A stretch of 24,604 nt of DNA from a virus. The DNA lies in the IMG/VR virus record IMGVR_UViG_3300037088_000213, positions 1 to 24,604 of that record; one strand, written 5' to 3'. Shown here in pieces: positions 6,659-22,429 of this stretch. Under the pieces are notes generated by a model. That model saw only the letters and a program-made list of their open reading frames with translations, had not been told where the DNA came from and searched no databases. The position numbers were made by a program, and so were the translations under genes. The stretch's first letter is position 1, and every line of letters begins with the position of its first letter.

Positions 6659-9115
6659 TTAGTATCTGTTAAGAACATTTTTCATATGCTCAACTTGTTC
6701 ATCAGAAAGTGAATAATTATCGTATGTATTTATGTTTTCATTCAATACTTTCTTTCCTGTGTTAGCTTGTGCATATTGTAGAAGATCTCTGGTTAACCAG
6801 AATGATTCTACTTTTTTCTCCGTAGTTAAGTCAGTATAGAATTGTGCTGTATCTAAAATACTTTCTTGTACTTTCGGATTTAATTTTTCCCAAATTGGCT
6901 GTAAGTCACTTGGAATATTTTCAACCAATGTTTCATTTAATGATCTGGTTGGTTTGAACAATGCTTTCTGCATTAATATAAGAACATCACTTTCGTTTGA
7001 ATAATTTCCCTTGTTTTCGTTCATGACAAAGTTTACTTTTTCCTTATCTTCTGGAGTTAAACCATAATAAGCGGCTTTCTTCTTTTCAGGTAAGAATAAT
7101 AAGAAGTGAGGATCTTCTGTCTTAGCGGCTTCGCGTTTTTTAGCGGCTTCGATGAGTTTCTTTATGTCTTTTGTTATCTGATTCGTATTTTCGTAAATTT
7201 TGGTTGTACCTAAAATTGTAAGTCTACTTTCTTCGACTTCAACTTCTTCGCCAGTATCTCCCATTTTTACAACTACAATTTTTGTAGTATCATCTGTTGC
7301 GAGAACTTCACCTGTACGAGTTGGTTCTTCAGTAGCTCCTTCAGTACCTTCTGGTTGTGCTGTTTCTTCATCTTTATCTCCCTTAACAGTAACAATCATA
7401 CCCGGAGTAATACCTAAACCTGTTTCTTCTTGTGGTGGAACTTCCTCAGTATTTACACCTTCAGCATCCTGAGCTGGTGTTTCTTCTACTGGTGGTGTTT
7501 CACCTTGTACTGGTGCTTCCTGAGCTGGTTTTTCTTCAGCTGGAGGTGTTTCCTGAGCCGGTTCTTCAACCTTAGGTTCTTCTGTTGCACCATCTGCTGG
7601 TTTTTCTTCTGGTTTATCTTCATAATAATTTGAAGGATCATCAGTTGTCATATCACCAATGGCTTCAGTAACACCTAATTTCTCAACAACTCTCTTTGTG
7701 TAGTCAATGTGTCTATCAATGACTTCTGCTTCATATTTTTGATAAGCGATAGAATCGGTAAGATTTTCAGCCAACATTTCTGAATAACGGATACCGTTAT
7801 CAGTTTGTTCTGCTACATATTCACCATATCTGATAGCGTTATCTACATGCTCGGCGATGTATTGAGTATAATCAACAATCTTTTCTGCACTTTCACTGAT
7901 GTAATCGGCGTAATCAACAAGATTGTCAACCGTTTCGGCTACATATTCAGCGTACATAATGTTCTTATCGAGATGTTCTGCGATATAATCAGCGTAATCA
8001 GCTATCTTATCAAAGTTTTCAGCGATGTATTCACTATATTTAATAGTGTTTTCAGTCTGTTCAGCTACATATTCGATAAAACTAATACCGTTATCTAACT
8101 TTTCAGCGATGTATTTTTGATAATCAATAACTTGGTCGGTTGTACCTGCTAAATAATCAATATAACCAATTGTTTTTTCGACTGCTTCTGCGATGTGGTC
8201 GTTGTGTTCGATAATGAGTTTTGTTTTTTCTTTGTTTTTCTCAACTCTTTCTTCCAGTTTGTCGTTTGTTTTCTTCAACTGTTTGTTTTCTTGAACTAAA
8301 ACATTAATCGCGTCTGCTATCTGATCAAGATATTCGGCCATTCTTTTTTGACCCTCGGATAATGTTTCGAATTCTTCATAAAGGCGAGAGAGTTTTTCCG
8401 GATCGAAATTCTTTGAATTAAGAGTTTCTTCAATGGAATTTTTTGTTTTCAATAACTCACTGTCTAAATAGGATTTGAACTCTTCCAATTTTGTCTGAGT
8501 TCCAATTTCGTTTTTTTCCATATTGAACAATTCATTTATTTTTGACTCCTCAGATATATCGAATATCCTGAAGTTTAAATTTTCATTGAATCCCAATGAT
8601 TCATTCATGTTTTTCAATTCCATTCGGGCTGAACTAAATCCGGGGTCTGCAACACAATCATAGGTGAATAACTTTTTAATTGTTACTTCACCATTCGATT
8701 CTGTTACACCGGCAGCTCTACTGGAAACGAAAATAGGTAGGTCATCATCTACAAGAGCTTGTGCTTCCTTTCCATAAAAGGTATTAGTTAATTTAATTTC
8801 TCCATCAACTCTATTGGTTTCCTTTATAAACCAAGCATTTTGAATTGTATGAGAAATACGAGTTAAGCTAGTATCAAATACATCTGGATGATCAAACTCT
8901 CCATAGACAACTTTTAACAGTTTTTTTCTTTCTAATAATTCACTAAGATGGGGTAAGAATTTCTCTGCGGTGTAAATCCTGTCATTTCTATTTCTAATAT
9001 TGAATTCTGTAAAAATACCCTTCATGATATATAGGATATTACCCTTACTACTTACGACCTCATTGATTTTCTCCAGACCACCCAATGTATTATCAATTAT
9101 TATTACATTTTTCAT
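6659..9115 (-). CDS. 21: Prohead protease fused to scaffold-like region (gp21/gp22 type)
   Basis: 818 residues, about four times T4 gp21. Residues 1-170 are the protease: GIFTEFNIRNRNDRIYTAEKF, GEFDHPDVF with catalytic H76, ISHTIQNAWF, and IFVSSRAAGVTE holding the serine (S131 or S132), then YDCVADPGFSS with D153 or D157 as third residue candidates. Residues 200-300 are helical and charged. Residues 302-483 hold 13 uninterrupted 14-residue repeats. Residues 492-566 form a Pro/Glu linker, 567-636 look like an SH3/KOW-like barrel (GMIVTVKGD...GEVLATDDTTKIVVVKMG), and 645-818 a helical end domain. In T4 the protease cuts the scaffold inside the prohead and then itself; here both seem joined in one chain. 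No internal stop or frameshift is seen. It lies between portal and capsid genes, as genes 21 and 22 do in T4. Confidence 0.9.
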   Translation of the reverse strand: MKNVIIIDNTLGGLEKINEVVSSKGNILYIMKGIFTEFNIRNRNDRIYTAEKFLPHLSELLERKKLLKVVYGEFDHPDVFDTSLTRISHTIQNAWFIKETNRVDGEIKLTNTFYGKEAQALVDDDLPIFVSSRAAGVTESNGEVTIKKLFTYDCVADPGFSSARMELKNMNESLGFNENLNFRIFDISEESKINELFNMEKNEIGTQTKLEEFKSYLDSELLKTKNSIEETLNSKNFDPEKLSRLYEEFETLSEGQKRMAEYLDQIADAINVLVQENKQLKKTNDKLEERVEKNKEKTKLIIEHNDHIAEAVEKTIGYIDYLAGTTDQVIDYQKYIAEKLDNGISFIEYVAEQTENTIKYSEYIAENFDKIADYADYIAEHLDKNIMYAEYVAETVDNLVDYADYISESAEKIVDYTQYIAEHVDNAIRYGEYVAEQTDNGIRYSEMLAENLTDSIAYQKYEAEVIDRHIDYTKRVVEKLGVTEAIGDMTTDDPSNYYEDKPEEKPADGATEEPKVEEPAQETPPAEEKPAQEAPVQGETPPVEETPAQDAEGVNTEEVPPQEETGLGITPGMIVTVKGDKDEETAQPEGTEGATEEPTRTGEVLATDDTTKIVVVKMGDTGEEVEVEESRLTILGTTKIYENTNQITKDIKKLIEAAKKREAAKTEDPHFLLFLPEKKKAAYYGLTPEDKEKVNFVMNENKGNYSNESDVLILMQKALFKPTRSLNETLVENIPSDLQPIWEKLNPKVQESILDTAQFYTDLTTEKKVESFWLTRDLLQYAQANTGKKVLNENINTYDNYSLSDEQVEHMKNVLNRY
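7667..8212 (-). repeat. Thirteen 14-residue (42-base) coding repeats in scaffold region
   Basis: Within the protease-scaffold gene, units begin at residues 302, 316, 330 and so on to 470, with no insertion or deletion. The pattern is I/V-x-Y-x-x-Y-I/V-A-E-x-x-D/E-x-x. Fourteen residues equal two heptads, so a long coiled-coil rod is expected. The DNA copies are diverged, so the repeat is kept by selection on protein and not by recent duplication. Confidence 0.9.
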
Positions 9116-14869: not shown

Positions 14870-14881
14870 TTAATATATAAG
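14870..14881 (+). promoter_or_regulatory. Late-promoter motif before 111-residue gene
   Basis: TTAATATATAAG ends 20 bases before the ATG at 14902, leaving a short leader (GGGAAAAGAAACACTTTCCC) that can itself fold through GGGAAA and TTTCCC. Confidence 0.65.
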
Positions 14882-14901: not shown

Positions 14902-15237
14902 ATGAAGTATCTTAAATCTTTTCTTCAACTAACAGAAAACATGGAAATCGAACCTCATAAAGTAACTAATTTATCAGTTGAACAACAAATGTTGTTAAAT
15001 ATTAATAGGTATAATGTAGAAGAAGTCGCTGAACGATATACGAGAAAGCAATTAGCAAAAACTATTGTCTACACAACTTGTTATTCTGAATCTTTAATGA
15101 AGCAATATAAGGAATTTAAAACAAAAGAAGATATGGTTCTTTATATTATTGAATGGCTTGATGAATGTTTTGAAGATTTAGGATATGTTGAAGATTTAAT
15201 TGAAACGATTGATAATTGTAATAACGGTACATATTAA
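14902..15237 (+). CDS. Hypothetical protein (111 aa)
   Basis: A soluble, mostly helical acidic protein. The first part (MKYLKSFLQLTENMEIEPHK) could be an amphipathic start. The rest has EEVAERYTRKQLAKTIVYTTCYSESLMKQYKEFKTKEDMVLYIIEWLDECFEDLGYVEDLIETID, suggesting a small helical bundle. It has a clear late-type promoter and ends convergently, with stop codons overlapping those of the 95-residue gene by four bases. I do not recognise the family. Confidence 0.7.
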   Translation: MKYLKSFLQLTENMEIEPHKVTNLSVEQQMLLNINRYNVEEVAERYTRKQLAKTIVYTTCYSESLMKQYKEFKTKEDMVLYIIEWLDECFEDLGYVEDLIETIDNCNNGTY

Positions 15238-15921: not shown

Positions 15922-17679
15922 TTAATCTGGTGGAGGTGGTGCTTGTCCAGTAGTGAAATTTTTAATCACACCATAAGAAAAACCGAATATATTTTGTGCA
16001 TAAGCTACATAATAATATTTAGTACCAGACAATAATCCACTAATAGTTCCACTAAAATTAAGTGGGGCATTTCCAGTTCCACAACTCTTAACTGTTCCAG
16101 TGTAAACACCAAAAGAAGTAAGAGAATATTTCATTCCTAAATCTATTATAGATCCACCACCATTTGAAATTAAAGATCCAGTTAAAACAGCTGATGATGA
16201 AGTAACACTTGTAGAACCGATAGTTGCAACAGTTGGAGCAGGTGATGAGGAAGTTGTTATAGTTAATATAGATCCATAACCTGTACCCAATGAATTAGTG
16301 GCAAAGGCTCTAACATAATAGATTGTCAATTGATTTAATCCCATCATAGTATCTGTATAAGATCCTATTCCTGTACTACCATCATAAACAACCGTATTAT
16401 TCAATGTCGGGTTGTTCGTTGTAGAATAACAAATTCCACGAACAGTTGCCAATCCACCATCACTTGTCACATTACAAGAGACTGTACAAGAATTATATCC
16501 CGGAGTTCCAGTTGATACAGTAGTGACACTTGGAATTGAATAAGTTGGGGGTGGAGGTGGAGGTGGTAATGGTTGTGGAACAACATTCTGTTGTAAATCC
16601 GTTGTAAAAGTTCCCTGAAATTCACTGATTAAAAAACCATTTTCAAAAATCCCATTTAACCACATTCCAGAAAAAAACATTCCAGATTTAAAAATTCCAT
16701 TCATCCATAATCCGTCATACCAAAGTCCATTTTTCCAAATTGTTAATGAAGTAAAGGCATCTTCTGCACTTGTATTGAATACCCCACCATACCATTTTCC
16801 ATAATTGAATAATCCTTTTTCGAAATGACCACCGAACCAAAATCCATTGTTAAATGTTCCGTCTTTCCAATGAGTAACATTATGATCAACACTAGCTATA
16901 GTATTTCCACTACTATCAATATTAAGTCCAGACATAAATTGTCCATTTTCAAAAACACCATTATACCAAGTTGTTAGTGTTGTTGTTCCACTTTCAGTTC
17001 CAAATCTTGCTAATATATTAGTTTTTATTTGATTGAATGTTCCTGTTTTCCAAATACCTTTAAGAAAATCTCCACCGAAAAATCCACCACTCCACCATTC
17101 ATAATTATCAAAATAACCATTATAAAACTTCCCGTTAACCCAATATGAATTTTTAACCGTACCATTATTGAATACACCGTTCATCCAGACTGAATTTTTG
17201 AATAATCCATTATAGTAATTTCCATTATACCAATATGGACAATCAAGGGCCCCCGTTGTAACCTGTGTAGATGTCATTCCAGAAACATTATTATCATTCC
17301 CAAAGATACCATTATGCCATTCACCGTTTAACCATTTACCGTTCAAAAACTGAGAATACATTTTATCTTCTTCAACAATCACAAATCTTTTTGTTAATAT
17401 CATTGATTTATCCAATAAATAAGAAAACCAACGACCTTTTTTCCAAATTCCATCATGCCAAATTCCAGAATACCATGTACCATCTTCCCATTCTCCACAA
17501 ATCCATTCTCCCATGTACCATACTAAACCATAATCATCCAAACCTAAAACAGCATTTCGGATGGAGGCATTTAATATCCAATTATATCTAACCTTTAATA
17601 TTTCTATGGTTAAATCATCAGTCAATAAGATATTATTAACATTGTTTTCTATATTTACTATTTGAACTTTAAAAGCCAT
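15922..17679 (-). CDS. Adhesin-like protein with W-x-N-G repeats and FN3-like domains
   Basis: 585 residues from the ATG at 17679 (MAFKVQIVN); an in-frame TTG two codons earlier is less likely. Residues about 50-350 hold some 25 short units of the kind W-x-N/D-G-x-(F/W/Y)-x-N/K-G, such as WYNGNYYNGLF and WMNGVFNNG, which should make a regular beta structure. A proline run (about 371-378) acts as hinge, followed by two FN3-like domains (380-476 and 480-578) with the closing pattern YYVRAFATNSLGTGYGS and YYYVAYAQNIFGFSYG, common in Bacteroidota surface proteins. The end is PPPPD. It starts 23 bases after the 855-residue gene, so both share a transcript. A tail-fibre or virion decoration role in binding host surface is inferred. 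Confidence 0.78.
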   Translation of the reverse strand: MAFKVQIVNIENNVNNILLTDDLTIEILKVRYNWILNASIRNAVLGLDDYGLVWYMGEWICGEWEDGTWYSGIWHDGIWKKGRWFSYLLDKSMILTKRFVIVEEDKMYSQFLNGKWLNGEWHNGIFGNDNNVSGMTSTQVTTGALDCPYWYNGNYYNGLFKNSVWMNGVFNNGTVKNSYWVNGKFYNGYFDNYEWWSGGFFGGDFLKGIWKTGTFNQIKTNILARFGTESGTTTLTTWYNGVFENGQFMSGLNIDSSGNTIASVDHNVTHWKDGTFNNGFWFGGHFEKGLFNYGKWYGGVFNTSAEDAFTSLTIWKNGLWYDGLWMNGIFKSGMFFSGMWLNGIFENGFLISEFQGTFTTDLQQNVVPQPLPPPPPPPTYSIPSVTTVSTGTPGYNSCTVSCNVTSDGGLATVRGICYSTTNNPTLNNTVVYDGSTGIGSYTDTMMGLNQLTIYYVRAFATNSLGTGYGSILTITTSSSPAPTVATIGSTSVTSSSAVLTGSLISNGGGSIIDLGMKYSLTSFGVYTGTVKSCGTGNAPLNFSGTISGLLSGTKYYYVAYAQNIFGFSYGVIKNFTTGQAPPPPD

Positions 17680-17702
17680 TCCCAATTTTTATTTTTATAA
17701 AG

Positions 17703-20270
17703 TTAATCATATACTAATGTCCACCCTTTCAATATAAGATTATTTCTTGATACCTGAGATATCGTAGTAACATGAGCATTAAGACCAGCTATTCCCATTC
17801 CCGATGTATTTATATACCCATTTAAAAGTCCATTGGAATCAAGTATGTTAAAGAATTTATCCACATCAACAAGATTATTATTACTCAAATCTAAATGGGT
17901 GAGATATAGTAATCCAGTAATATCAAAATCTGGTAAAATATTATTAGATAATGTCAGAGATGTTAGATTGTTTATATTCATCACATTAGAAATAAATATA
18001 CCACCACCATTTACTGTTACTGATCTTAGATACTGTAAATCCCCTTGGAAGGTTATACCAAAGAAATTATTAGCGGAATATGTATGACTTCCTATGTAAT
18101 AACCATTAAAAGTAATGGTTTCTAATCCATCCCCCCAATCTATATCCAATGTTGTTGGTGAGATACTTTGTAAGATATAATTAAACACCATTCCAATTGT
18201 TGCTTTGATCTTAAATGAAAACGATCCATATGCTGTCGTTCCAGTTGTACTTCCACTTGTTGCCCCCGTTAATAAATCATATGTTATCACTAAATTTTCA
18301 CTTAAAATTGGAATTGGTATTTTTGTGTGTTTATCAACACCAATCTCAATCAATTCTATTGGTTTGTAAATTAAATTAGGATCATAACTAAAAGTTATAT
18401 TTCCACCATTGTTCATTAAATTTTCAGGATTGTACATTTCCAGAACGAACTTATGATTATCGTCTTGAGTTAATAAAGCTGTAGTATTTTTCGTTATATT
18501 TATATCATTTTCGATAATTCTGGAATATGAAATACAAATATCTTTTCTTAAATCATCATCTTTAACTCTGTACCAATCGTTTTCTTCATTCTTATAAACA
18601 GAATATAATAATTCCGATATTCCTGTCAGAGTATAAATACTATCTATACTTGTTATGGTTAATCCAGAATTACTCTTATATGTTTCTATAATGAAATATT
18701 CATTTGGAACATAATCTACAATCAATGTTTTGTAAATTGAATTCAAATTAACAAAAGTATGATTTTTTAGAAAATACATATCAGATGGGTTTGTCGGTGT
18801 AATCTTCACATAAGTTCCTTTTGGATACATTCCTAAATATTCCGAACTTTGAATTTCATTAAAAGCTGTTAATCCCGATGTAAATAATGTCAAATTAACA
18901 TCACTCAAAAAAGAATACGAATTATTAAAAATAGTTGGATTTATCGAATTCAAATGTTCATATAATTTATATTTCGAATAAGAATTAGTGGTAGAAAATG
19001 AATATTCAGTATAAGAAACTCCACTATAAATAATTTGTAATCCATCATAATCAAAATAATGATTATATTGATAATAAGTTGGAGATACATTTAATGATGG
19101 ATCGACATAAAAATATTTGGAGTGATAAGCTGAATTTAAAATAGTTTGGATATTACCTATTGTTGACCATTGAAGATTTGTAATTGTATATGAATAACCA
19201 CTTAAATCAGTCAATAAATTATTTGGAATAGGATCTTTCAAAGACACATAATAATCAACTGAATTGTCTTTACTTTTTATAAATGTATTGTAGAAAAGAC
19301 TGGTATTTCCTGATATTTCAATTTGTACATAATCATTTAAATTTGTATTACTATAAAAATTCGAACTCACTTTAACAAAAGTATAAACTGATTCATTTGT
19401 AGCTGTTAACCACCATTCATCATATTTATTAAACATCGTACTTCCAGATGTAATTCCCGTATAAATAAATTTGGTTGTGTCTGGATCAAGTATTATAATA
19501 TATTCGTTATCATGATATTTAATCACGACTTTATCACCATTATTAAGAACATTAGAAACATTGAATCCTGTATAAAGAGAATAATTTAATGGATTCATGT
19601 GTCTTGCTATATCATAATCAGTGAAAATCAATTTAGGAATTGGTATTGTCGCCCCCAAATTATAATTGAAGAAATTTTTTATAATATAGGTTTTACCCGA
19701 CATATAATCAGCTGATTGATATGATACTGGAAAATAATCCCCTACATTTTTTAAATGATATTCCTTGTGTTTATTATCACCCAGCTTGACATAACCTTTG
19801 TATCTAAATGTATTCCCCGAATCAGCCATAAAATCTGATCTAATTAAAAATCCTCTTTGGTCGACATTGTATAATCCATTTTGGGTTTTATCTGATTGAT
19901 TTACCAGAAGGACTTTATGTTTCGTCTTTAAATAAGCATTATCAATCGTATAATATCTTAGGGTCAAATCTAAACTCGATGTACTACATACATCAACACT
20001 ATCCATATTGACCATGAAATTATTTATAATATCAAATTCATTATACATATTGTAAATACACCAATTCTTTCCGACCATTGGATTTTTATTATAAATATCA
20101 TCGAGAGTATTAACATATTGATAGGTGATACCAGATAAACATTTTTGGTATTTAAAATAGTTATCTGGGATATAAGTTACCCCGCTCCAATAAGCATCTA
20201 ATCTCTCTTCTCTCAACCAAGTGTCGCCATTCAAAGTCCAATCAAATTTGATGTTCCATATGTCTTTCAT
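17703..20270 (-). CDS. Large tail-fibre/receptor-binding candidate with PKD-like and LRR parts
   Basis: 855 residues, rich in Tyr, Asn, Ser and Thr. Near the N-terminus, VLLVNQSDKTQNGLYNVDQRGFLIRSDF (about 120-147) matches a phrase common in phage tail-fibre proteins (VLLKxQTxxxxNGIYxV...RxxD). The long middle is beta-rich with many aromatic residues. Near the C-terminus, DIDWGDG (709-715) followed by a GSHTYS (727-732) is a PKD-like turn, and from about 745 come leucine-rich units (LTSLTLSNNILPDFDITGLL, YLTHLDLSNNNLVDVDKF). The combination suggests a stalk with a binding tip. It is the first gene of a two-gene adhesin transcript with a strong promoter motif just upstream. No signal peptide is seen, as expected of a virion protein. 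Confidence 0.8.
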   Translation of the reverse strand: MKDIWNIKFDWTLNGDTWLREERLDAYWSGVTYIPDNYFKYQKCLSGITYQYVNTLDDIYNKNPMVGKNWCIYNMYNEFDIINNFMVNMDSVDVCSTSSLDLTLRYYTIDNAYLKTKHKVLLVNQSDKTQNGLYNVDQRGFLIRSDFMADSGNTFRYKGYVKLGDNKHKEYHLKNVGDYFPVSYQSADYMSGKTYIIKNFFNYNLGATIPIPKLIFTDYDIARHMNPLNYSLYTGFNVSNVLNNGDKVVIKYHDNEYIIILDPDTTKFIYTGITSGSTMFNKYDEWWLTATNESVYTFVKVSSNFYSNTNLNDYVQIEISGNTSLFYNTFIKSKDNSVDYYVSLKDPIPNNLLTDLSGYSYTITNLQWSTIGNIQTILNSAYHSKYFYVDPSLNVSPTYYQYNHYFDYDGLQIIYSGVSYTEYSFSTTNSYSKYKLYEHLNSINPTIFNNSYSFLSDVNLTLFTSGLTAFNEIQSSEYLGMYPKGTYVKITPTNPSDMYFLKNHTFVNLNSIYKTLIVDYVPNEYFIIETYKSNSGLTITSIDSIYTLTGISELLYSVYKNEENDWYRVKDDDLRKDICISYSRIIENDINITKNTTALLTQDDNHKFVLEMYNPENLMNNGGNITFSYDPNLIYKPIELIEIGVDKHTKIPIPILSENLVITYDLLTGATSGSTTGTTAYGSFSFKIKATIGMVFNYILQSISPTTLDIDWGDGLETITFNGYYIGSHTYSANNFFGITFQGDLQYLRSVTVNGGGIFISNVMNINNLTSLTLSNNILPDFDITGLLYLTHLDLSNNNLVDVDKFFNILDSNGLLNGYINTSGMGIAGLNAHVTTISQVSRNNLILKGWTLVYD

Positions 20271-20289: not shown

Positions 20290-20309
20290 TTTCTTTTTAT
20301 ATATTAAAT
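20290..20309 (-). promoter_or_regulatory. Late promoter of adhesin transcript
   Basis: On the minus strand the 20 bases read ATTTAATATATAAAAAGAAA, ending 19 bases before the ATG of the 855-residue gene. The same 20 bases occur on the plus strand at 20348-20367. Confidence 0.72.
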
Positions 20310-20347: not shown

Positions 20348-20367
20348 ATTTAATATATAAAAAGAAA
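20348..20367 (+). promoter_or_regulatory. Late promoter of M16 peptidase gene
   Basis: ATTTAATATATAAAAAGAAA, identical to the minus-strand copy at 20290-20309, with 38 bases between them. The ATG at 20386 lies 18 bases downstream. Confidence 0.72.
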
Positions 20368-20385: not shown

Positions 20386-21492
20386 ATGATATATAATATA
20401 CAAAATCAAATTGACTTATCAGGATTCTACATTGTCTATAATGGTGTTGTCGTAAATGAAAAAGAGGGAACTTATGGAATATCTCATTTAATAGAACATT
20501 TAGTATGTAAAAACTTGAATGATGAATTTGTGGATTCATTAGAAAAAAACGGTATAACTTGGAATGCTTATACAACACCGAATAATATAGTTTTCTATAT
20601 CAAAGGTTTAGATGATTATGTTTATAATTTCAAAAATGAATTTCTTCAAAAAATCACAAACTTCAAAATAACTCCTGATGTTTTTAAAATAGAAAAAAAT
20701 GTGGTTTTAGAGGAATATACCGACTTATTCAATAGGTATAATAAAAATCATTTTCTCAATTTATATAGAAAAGTACTAAACAACTATAATTCAGTTGGGA
20801 AAAAAGAGGACATAGAACAATTAACAATGGAAAAATGCTTAGAACATTATTCGCAGTTTTATAGTAATCCATCTAAAATAATATACATATCAAAGAAATA
20901 TAAAGAAGAAACAACAAATATAACCTTTGATGATAAGTCAAGTAAAAAAACTTTTAAATTAGGAACATATGATTATACCTTAGAAACTCCTTTATTATCT
21001 GGAAATAAATCTTCTATTATTTACCTTTCTCCAATAATAAATGAAGATTTCGATAAGATAATATTCATCAACTATCTTCTATCTGGAGGATTAAAATCTC
21101 CGTTATATAAAGCAATTAGAGAAAAAAATAGTTTGGCTTATTATATCAACTGTCGTATTGATCGTCTGGATGATAAAGGAATCATAATTATTTCAACCGA
21201 AACGAGCGATGTTAATGTGGAAAAATTAAATGAAACTATAATCAATGTTTTTAAAGAAAGATCCTATTTAACCAGAGAAAAATTTGAAAGTGTAAAAAAT
21301 TTCATTAAAATCAGTTTGATAAAATCGAATATTAACTTACAAGACAATGAAGATAAATTCATTCTCCCCCAGAATTGGCTTATAGAAGATACAATCGACA
21401 AGTTAACTTATGAGGATATTATGGTGGCTTTTGATAAATATTTCAACATCAATGACTTCTATAAAAGTGTAAATAAAAATGAATTTTCTTAA
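20386..21492 (+). CDS. M16 family zinc metallopeptidase (insulinase/pitrilysin type)
   Basis: 368 residues with both M16 halves. H34-L-I-E37-H38 is the inverted zinc motif HxxEH; E110 in EKNVVLEEYTD is the third zinc ligand and E103 the second conserved glutamate, giving HxxEH-x71-E, slightly shorter than the usual x76. NAYTT (60-64) fits the substrate-edge strand. The C-terminal half (about 208-330) has LSGGLKSPLYKAIREKNSLAYYI, with R245 and Y252/Y253 as the R/Y pair that holds substrate. Members cut peptides inside a closed chamber formed by two or four such halves; a protein of this size should work as a dimer. It lacks the first strand of cellular forms and has no signal peptide, so a cytoplasmic or virion site is likely. 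It is divergent from the adhesins. Its substrate is unknown. Confidence 0.92.
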   Translation: MIYNIQNQIDLSGFYIVYNGVVVNEKEGTYGISHLIEHLVCKNLNDEFVDSLEKNGITWNAYTTPNNIVFYIKGLDDYVYNFKNEFLQKITNFKITPDVFKIEKNVVLEEYTDLFNRYNKNHFLNLYRKVLNNYNSVGKKEDIEQLTMEKCLEHYSQFYSNPSKIIYISKKYKEETTNITFDDKSSKKTFKLGTYDYTLETPLLSGNKSSIIYLSPIINEDFDKIIFINYLLSGGLKSPLYKAIREKNSLAYYINCRIDRLDDKGIIIISTETSDVNVEKLNETIINVFKERSYLTREKFESVKNFIKISLIKSNINLQDNEDKFILPQNWLIEDTIDKLTYEDIMVAFDKYFNINDFYKSVNKNEFS

Positions 21493-21557: not shown

Positions 21558-21569
21558 TTAATATATAAG
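21558..21569 (+). promoter_or_regulatory. Late-promoter motif before 53-residue gene
   Basis: TTAATATATAAG, identical to the copies at 14797 and 14870, lies 89 bases before the ATG at 21659. The leader is longer than for other genes here. Confidence 0.55.
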
Positions 21570-21658: not shown

Positions 21659-21820
21659 ATGTCAGAACAGCAAGAACAAAGAATATCCTTTGTATTAAAA
21701 AATTTCATAGAAGAAATATCCAAAGACCTAAAGCTCACAGAAGAACAAAAAACAGAATTAAAAAAAATGGCTATTGAGGATACAAATAAACTCTTTAACT
21801 ATAGCTTGGAAATCAAGTAA
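21659..21820 (+). CDS. Small helical protein (53 aa)
   Basis: MSEQQEQRISFVLKNFIEEI begins a short charged protein with helical character throughout, ending LFNYSLEIK. The ATG at 21659 is chosen over an upstream TTG at 21614 because the upstream residues are only an A-rich leader in translation. I do not recognise it. It lies directly before the IF-3 gene on the same strand but the IF-3 gene has its own promoter. Confidence 0.6.
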   Translation: MSEQQEQRISFVLKNFIEEISKDLKLTEEQKTELKKMAIEDTNKLFNYSLEIK

Positions 21821-21904: not shown

Positions 21905-22429
21905 ATGAACAAAAACAACAGAGAAAAAACAGAAAAAATCAATCATCAAATTACATCTCATTCAGTTAGACTAATATTTACAGATGGAACTCAACCATAT
22001 GTAACCACAACAACGGAAGCTTTACAATTGTCGAAAGACTTGGGTGTGGATCTAATTGAAATTTCACCAACAGCAAACCCACCAGTTTGTAAAATGATGG
22101 ATTACAATAAGTTCCTTTACGAAAAGAAACAAAAAGACAAAGAAAATCAGAAAAACAATAAAAAAATAAAATTGAAAGAGATCCGTATGACTTATAATAC
22201 GGGAGAACATGATTTCAATTTTAAATTAAATCATGCCATCAATTTTCTCAACGATGGTGATAAAGTTAAAGCCTTTATATTTTTCGCTGGCCGAGAGCTA
22301 AAATTCAAAGAAATCGGGGAATTATTATTGTTGAAATTCGTTGATGGACTTAAAGAAGTCGGAAAAATTGAAAATATGCCTAAACTGGATGGTAACAGAT
22401 TGTGGGTCATAATCCAACCGAAAAAATAA
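21905..22429 (+). CDS. infC: Translation initiation factor IF-3 homologue
   Basis: 174 residues, full length for IF-3. The N-domain (about 12-81) has INHQITSHSVRLIFTDGTQ, EALQLSKDLGVDLIEISPTANPPVCKMMDYNKFLYEKKQK. A lysine linker follows (82-90), then the C-domain (91-173) with KEIRMTYNTGEHDFNFKLNHAINFLNDGDKVKAFIFFAGRELKFKEIGELLLLKFVDGLKEVGKIENMPKLDGNRLWVII. IF-3 binds the 30S subunit, keeps subunits apart and checks the initiator tRNA and start codon. The C-domain wording is close to Bacteroidota IF-3. Two conserved basic positions differ: (R/K)GR is AGR at 128-130, and EGR is DGN at 162-164. The start is ATG, not the AUU of many cellular infC genes. It is driven by a host-type promoter, so early or constitutive expression is likely. 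Confidence 0.95.
   Translation: MNKNNREKTEKINHQITSHSVRLIFTDGTQPYVTTTTEALQLSKDLGVDLIEISPTANPPVCKMMDYNKFLYEKKQKDKENQKNNKKIKLKEIRMTYNTGEHDFNFKLNHAINFLNDGDKVKAFIFFAGRELKFKEIGELLLLKFVDGLKEVGKIENMPKLDGNRLWVIIQPKK

Follow-up and report, generated by a model that had tools for sequence, protein, structure and literature searches.

A catalytically complete M16 peptidase in giant T4-like phages and its possible tie to scaffold design

Introduction

The M16 peptidase family is well known, as are automatically named database members of it and other giant phages with M16 enzymes of their own. The original prediction for the locus analyzed here treated M16 peptidases as cellular and organellar enzymes, none being known to have an assigned role in a T4-like phage; this has to be amended, since viral M16s are known in Bacillus phage G (gp2, annotated as ‘zinc-dependent peptidase’), Microcystis phage PhiMa05, a marine phage, and poxviruses. 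In the latter, the M16-like metalloprotease G1 is needed for virion morphogenesis (PMC1420270). In phage T4, the prohead protease gp21 cleaves after L/I-X-E and dices the scaffold, whose fragments exit the head (PMC9026906, PMC5694885).

The huge-phage paper (PMC7162821) assigns its four largest complete genomes to the Mahaphage clade and predicts Bacteroidetes hosts for them. The main text of that paper contains neither ‘peptidase’ nor ‘protease’, a 2026 jumbo-phage review (PMC13282480) contains none of ‘M16’, ‘peptidase’, and ‘metalloprotease’, and in the literature on M16 peptidases in phages we found no paper describing the family considered below. Here, we analyze an M16 gene in a 24,604-nucleotide stretch of viral DNA (IMG/VR record IMGVR_UViG_3300037088_000213, positions 1–24,604; hereinafter, the window). 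The new points are that a classical cellular/organellar peptidase appears to be among the core late genes of the largest known phages, and that it may be tied to scaffold design.

Results

Fold and active site

The gene at 20386–21492 (+) starts with ATG and encodes a single-chain, M16B-type zinc peptidase of 368 amino acids. The protein matches Peptidase_M16 (PF00675) over residues 24–133 (8.7e-12, 45.6 bits vs. the cut-off of 22.3) and Peptidase_M16_C (PF05193) over residues 203–305 (2.1e-11, 44.5 bits vs. 23). The AlphaFold2 model, for which the input alignment had 34 rows, reaches pLDDT 92.8 and pTM 0.89; its top matches among solved structures are the bacterial M16 peptidases 5euf (Z 33.2) and 3hdi (Z 32.7), which superpose with the whole chain at 2.6–2.7 Å across 355–357 residues. 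The model fits the two-domain half of the M16 clam (about 400 residues) expected for the family.

The inverted zinc motif HxxEH is present as HLIEH at residues 34–38 (20485–20499, +); by homology, H34 and H38 are predicted to be zinc ligands, and E37 the general base. The third ligand, E110 (20713–20715, +), aligns with the EEI glutamate of 3hdi and lies 72 residues past H38, the spacing in the M16 family being about 72–76; E103 is the conserved Glu upstream of it. The substrate-binding edge strand is seen as NAYT at residues 60–63 (20563–20574, +), and the C-domain pair Arg245/Tyr252, completing the substrate site, is found within REKNSLAY (21118–21141, +). Comparison with 36 distinct phage members (37–68% identity to the window protein) shows that H34, E37, H38, N60, A61, T63, E110, R245, and Y252 are each identical in 36/36. 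Invariant columns make up 23 of 368, and the chance of H34, E37, H38, E110, R245, and Y252 all being among them is 3e-8.

The predicted catalytic completeness is thus borne out, with HxxEH, E110, NAxT, and R245/Y252 located and kept by all members; close relatives devoid of HxxEH, proposed as counterevidence, were looked for, and the motif is retained in 36/36. On every feature that could be tested, the window protein qualifies as a genuine member of M16, and, judging from its sequence, it is almost certainly an active peptidase under selection for activity. No signal peptide is apparent, and the M16 fold begins right at the N-terminus, without a leader, hence, the enzyme is likely cytosolic. 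A single chain carries both the active N-domain and the C-domain with the Arg/Tyr pair, so that the enzyme is expected to form a homodimer.

Occurrence among giant phages

A tblastn search of 50,697 phage records yields matches only in LR756501/LR756503 (735 kb), LR745206 (635 kb), LR756502 (642 kb), and LR756504 (636 kb), while a profile search of viral contigs reveals 40 M16 loci, on contigs of up to 508 kb. The phage-specific M16 clade is represented in the four largest complete phage genomes (634–735 kb, “Mahaphage”) and in dozens of fragments. In HMM searches of 19 records, 15 have a single M16 copy each, the 735-kb phage has two, and Lak-B9, LR756500, and PTm1 give no match. One 110-kb record has M16 and its neighbourhood identical to those of the window, which is a fragment of a Mahaphage-type giant phage. 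The T4-like context described in the original prediction is indeed found: the window encodes a Gp23-type capsid protein, Portal_T4, a gp21-type protease, and a TnsA-like head-closure protein.

A separate observation concerns DPYGEE, a peptide motif with x-W after it in most cases, which occurs in 27 copies in the 137 kb read from the 735-kb phage and in eight copies in L011/L039, and is seen in L066 (LR756501.1 120000–168000), L005, L067, L011, and L039. Many unrelated ORFs carry it, either internally or at the C-terminus; the motif is absent from the window, the pieces of the 110-kb relative, and the other phages checked. It appears to be a lineage-specific dispersed peptide tag.

Selection and inheritance

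In the tree, built from phage rows together with M16 loci sampled from genomes of Bacteroidota and Bacillota, the phage M16s form one 22-row clade (100/100) with a long stem. A phylogeny against host enzymes had been suggested as a check; the phage rows are not nested in the sampled Bacteroidota M16s. Recent capture from a bacterial host was rejected, the clade standing apart from the sampled loci of this predicted host phylum. Pairwise identity of the M16s tracks that of the MCP (r 0.93) and the portal (r 0.97) among nine phages; when G004, whose capsid protein is divergent, is added to the comparison, r drops to 0.44 (p 0.08). The dN/dS ratio is about 0.04–0.15 in close pairs, with three close pairs saturated at synonymous sites.

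Invariance of the catalytic residues, low dN/dS, and co-divergence with capsid and portal argue for a core gene rather than a recent pick-up from the host; co-divergence, selection, and the separate clade also suggest that the gene is old and mostly vertically inherited within the lineage. M16 is best explained as a core late gene, passed on mainly by vertical descent, of a single lineage of giant T4-like phages.

One phage-clade M16 resides on a contig of a Nanoarchaeota MAG (L068:6001–7098), between archaeal ribosomal-protein and RecJ-like genes, and nests inside the phage clade in the tree; this would reflect either gene transfer or a chimeric contig.

Late-type promoter element

The T4-late-like promoter element TTAATATATAA is located 36 bp 5′ of the M16 ATG (20350–20360, +) and, on the opposite strand (20297–20307, −), 5′ of the divergent fibre/adhesin-like gene. 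The window contains eight copies vs. 0.27 expected, and every copy sits 26–73 bp 5′ of some ORF start; the genes so preceded include M16, the divergent fibre gene, and the head-closure gene, the element being shared by head/neck genes. This agrees with the late expression originally proposed for M16. In relatives, the element AATATATA/TTATATATA is found 18–65 bp 5′ of 26/28 head genes and 11/24 M16 genes, compared with 0/13 dNMP-kinase-like genes, 1/12 Dam-like genes, and 95/513 other ORFs (p = 0.003 for M16 vs. other ORFs). All seven near-clade M16 genes listed have the element or a close variant, and about half of the M16 genes in relatives lack one of their own. Late expression of M16 is, hence, a well-supported prediction within the window’s clade, and a less supported one outside it.

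The IF3 and 22786 genes are preceded by TAxxTTTG boxes in place of the late element, TAxxTTTG being the host-type Bacteroidetes signal; the phage IF-3 gene, with its box, is flanked by genes with late-type elements. We also observed a gene (14902–15237, +) with a late-type element at 14870–14880, encoding a 111-aa protein that opens with MKYLKSFLQLTENM, in the style of T4 capsid-targeting sequences.

Gene neighbourhood

The near-clade gene order is a divergent fibre pair, M16, an ORF of about 53 aa, and IF3. In the window, the pair consists of the 855-aa fibre/adhesin-like gene (17703–20270, −) and its partner (15922–17685, −), neither of which matches any PHROG family; the 15922–17685 product carries W-x-x-G repeats, and the lengths of the corresponding proteins in relatives vary, reaching 1,550–1,639 aa. 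Just 3′ of M16 is a 53-aa ORF with an ATG start (21659–21820, +) and its own TTAATATATAA at 21558–21568, followed by the gene for translation initiation factor IF-3 (21905–22429, +; Pfam IF3_N/IF3_C). In the deeper clade, the M16 neighbours are nucleotide-metabolism genes, TOPRIM, dNMP-kinase-like, Dam-like, and HD (the latter three names were read from the sequences), and in one such phage, W02, M16 is about 110 kb away from the head cluster. Consequently, the originally suggested link between M16 and the adhesins does not extend beyond the near clade, and adhesin processing was rejected as a general role.

Head genes adjoin M16 in several other cases. A gp21-type protease gene lies 0.2–1.3 kb 5′ of M16 in L037/L038 (1.6e-10 and 4.3e-17 vs. 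the PHROG head maturation protease); a Gp23-like ORF is immediately 5′ of M16 in G004/G005; TerL immediately precedes M16 (gp2) in Bacillus phage G; and the phage G relative L095 has TerL, a subtilase, and then M16 within one stretch. The head-gene context thus recurs across lineages and is not universal. The position of M16 beside truncated capsid/portal paralogs is striking in W01, L044, and G004; such a link was rejected, as the position test over 17 records is not significant (p = 0.05–0.07). Truncated or patchwork ORFs with capsid or portal segments are scattered across these giant genomes, at L066:22021–23049, L066:25583–26128, L005:24486–25007, L039:13882–14301, and G004:129847–130464, some of them next to M16; one 342-aa mini-portal lacks the segment present in other fragments.

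Prohead protease–scaffold fusion

The gp21-type (S77) prohead protease of the window is fused to the scaffold in an 818-aa protein (6659–9115, −; PHROG 207, head maturation protease, 8.4e-25). The scaffold segment (residues 304–471; 7703–8206, −) is built of 14-residue units, 12 in all, and 10 of these bear an in-register L/I/V/M-x-E site. In 11 M16-positive phages, the units are also 14 residues long, and the site is in register in 129/133. LR756500, the sole M16-negative relative with the repeat, keeps the 14-residue period and has the site in 6/11 units; no 14-residue scaffold repeat is found in the M16-negative Lak and PTm1. G004 has both M16 and 13/13 sited units, and its capsid protein falls outside the main clade, grouping with Lak (91/94).

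These observations suggest that the spacing of scaffold sites is coupled to the presence of M16, as a correlation partly confounded by kinship, since co-occurrence amounts to two or three evolutionary events (the main clade and G004, with one informative negative). Besides, the Glu of each unit may be kept for a coiled coil and not for cleavage. For the originally proposed clearance of scaffold peptides, the sited 14-residue units thus provide support of a correlative kind, part of which kinship may explain.

Discussion

Of the roles considered, the most likely, a reasonable possibility somewhat short of probable, is that M16 acts as a late cytosolic peptidase degrading scaffold or head peptides. 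During head maturation, the gp21-type protease is expected to cleave the fused scaffold after every L/I-x-E site, which would yield many peptides of about 14 residues leaving the prohead. M16 would act downstream, taking these short unfolded peptides into its chamber and degrading them, possibly together with head propeptides. Against this role, in the main deep clade the head cluster is some 110 kb away from M16, which is surrounded by nucleotide-metabolism genes; about half of the M16 genes are without their own late element; G004 breaks the co-divergence of M16 and capsid (r 0.44); and T4 and many giant phages dispose of the scaffold without any M16.

General peptide recycling, in which, during the late phase of a very large infection cycle, M16 would turn degraded host and phage proteins into a supply of amino acids, is quite unlikely: M16B enzymes are broad in peptide specificity, and giant genomes and virions demand much amino acid, but this reading leaves the absence of M16 from Lak and LR756500, also very large, unexplained. 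A host-directed function, where the substrate of M16 would be a peptide or small protein of the host (a defence effector, a toxin–antitoxin part, a signal peptide, or a quality-control substrate) whose cleavage favours infection, is unlikely as well. It would suit a cytosolic enzyme with a generic peptide-cutting fold, the non-structural genes around M16 in the deep clade, and the M16s that phage G and PhiMa05 acquired on their own; strong purifying selection, co-divergence with head genes, and the late-type promoter element speak against it. Host-directed peptidases have been argued to be usually patchy in distribution (PMC7824862), unlike the phage M16.

We assign a low probability to the possibility that M16 specifically matures one of the virion proteins (a capsid propeptide, the portal, or a fibre), comparable to poxvirus G1, whose step follows that of the main core protease. 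The late element common to M16 and the divergent fibre gene, and the capsid- and protease-related genes adjoining M16 in L037/L038 and G004/G005, are consistent with it, as is the M16-like poxvirus G1, which morphogenesis requires at a stage following core cleavage (PMC1420270). On the other hand, M16 enzymes prefer unfolded peptides, the fibre adjacency is restricted to the near clade, and the phage already encodes a gp21-type protease. Finally, inactive M16 folds exist in the bc1 core subunits, which are among the structure matches of the model, so that M16 could be vestigial, with a structural, non-catalytic role; given that no catalytic residue varies among the 36 members and that dN/dS is about 0.05–0.1, this is extremely improbable, and the pseudo-enzyme reading was rejected.

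The phage M16 gives an experimentally accessible way to ask how very large proheads get rid of their scaffold and what these phages need a second protease for; that cut-site spacing matches the presence of M16 is a concrete, falsifiable prediction.

The bacterial M16B enzymes (3hdi of Bacillus halodurans, 5euf of Helicobacter pylori, TTHA1264/1265) share with the phage M16 the whole fold, HxxEH...E, NAxT, and the Arg/Tyr pair; they differ in sequence (about 14–18% identity) and in length (400–440 aa vs. 368 aa), and the monophyletic, long-stemmed phage clade (100/100) is not beside the sampled Bacteroidota M16s. The ‘putative zinc protease’ A0A8D9CCE3 of an uncultured marine phage (48% identity, TM 0.97, 369 aa), belongs to the same family as the window protein, its name being automatic only. 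Phage G gp2 and L095 are likewise phage-encoded M16s with HxxEH near TerL, but form a separate branch of the M16 tree and have the typical bacterial length of 410 aa, which points to independent acquisition in phage G. Microcystis phage PhiMa05/MaAM05 also encodes M16s, but as a tandem pair near SMC/ScpAB, with HxxEH in one only; the lysis role published for the PhiMa05 zinc proteases (PMC8093824) finds no support for M16. In a 200-kb viral contig (L045:5156–14613), a different M16 is seen in a tandem gene row near a terminase gene, the proteins of the row starting with MKLxxLFES, which resembles T4 capsid-targeting N-termini.

Poxvirus G1, to which an entomopoxvirus homologue adds a weak match with the phage M16, is a viral M16-like enzyme with HxxEH acting late in morphogenesis (PMC1420270); it is distant and comes from a eukaryotic virus, so the comparison is one of working, not of membership. 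By this analogy, head maturation in the giant phages might involve two-step proteolysis, a tentative and rather doubtful suggestion, in which a site-bearing protease–scaffold fusion and a dedicated late M16 would parallel the poxvirus I7/G1 pair.
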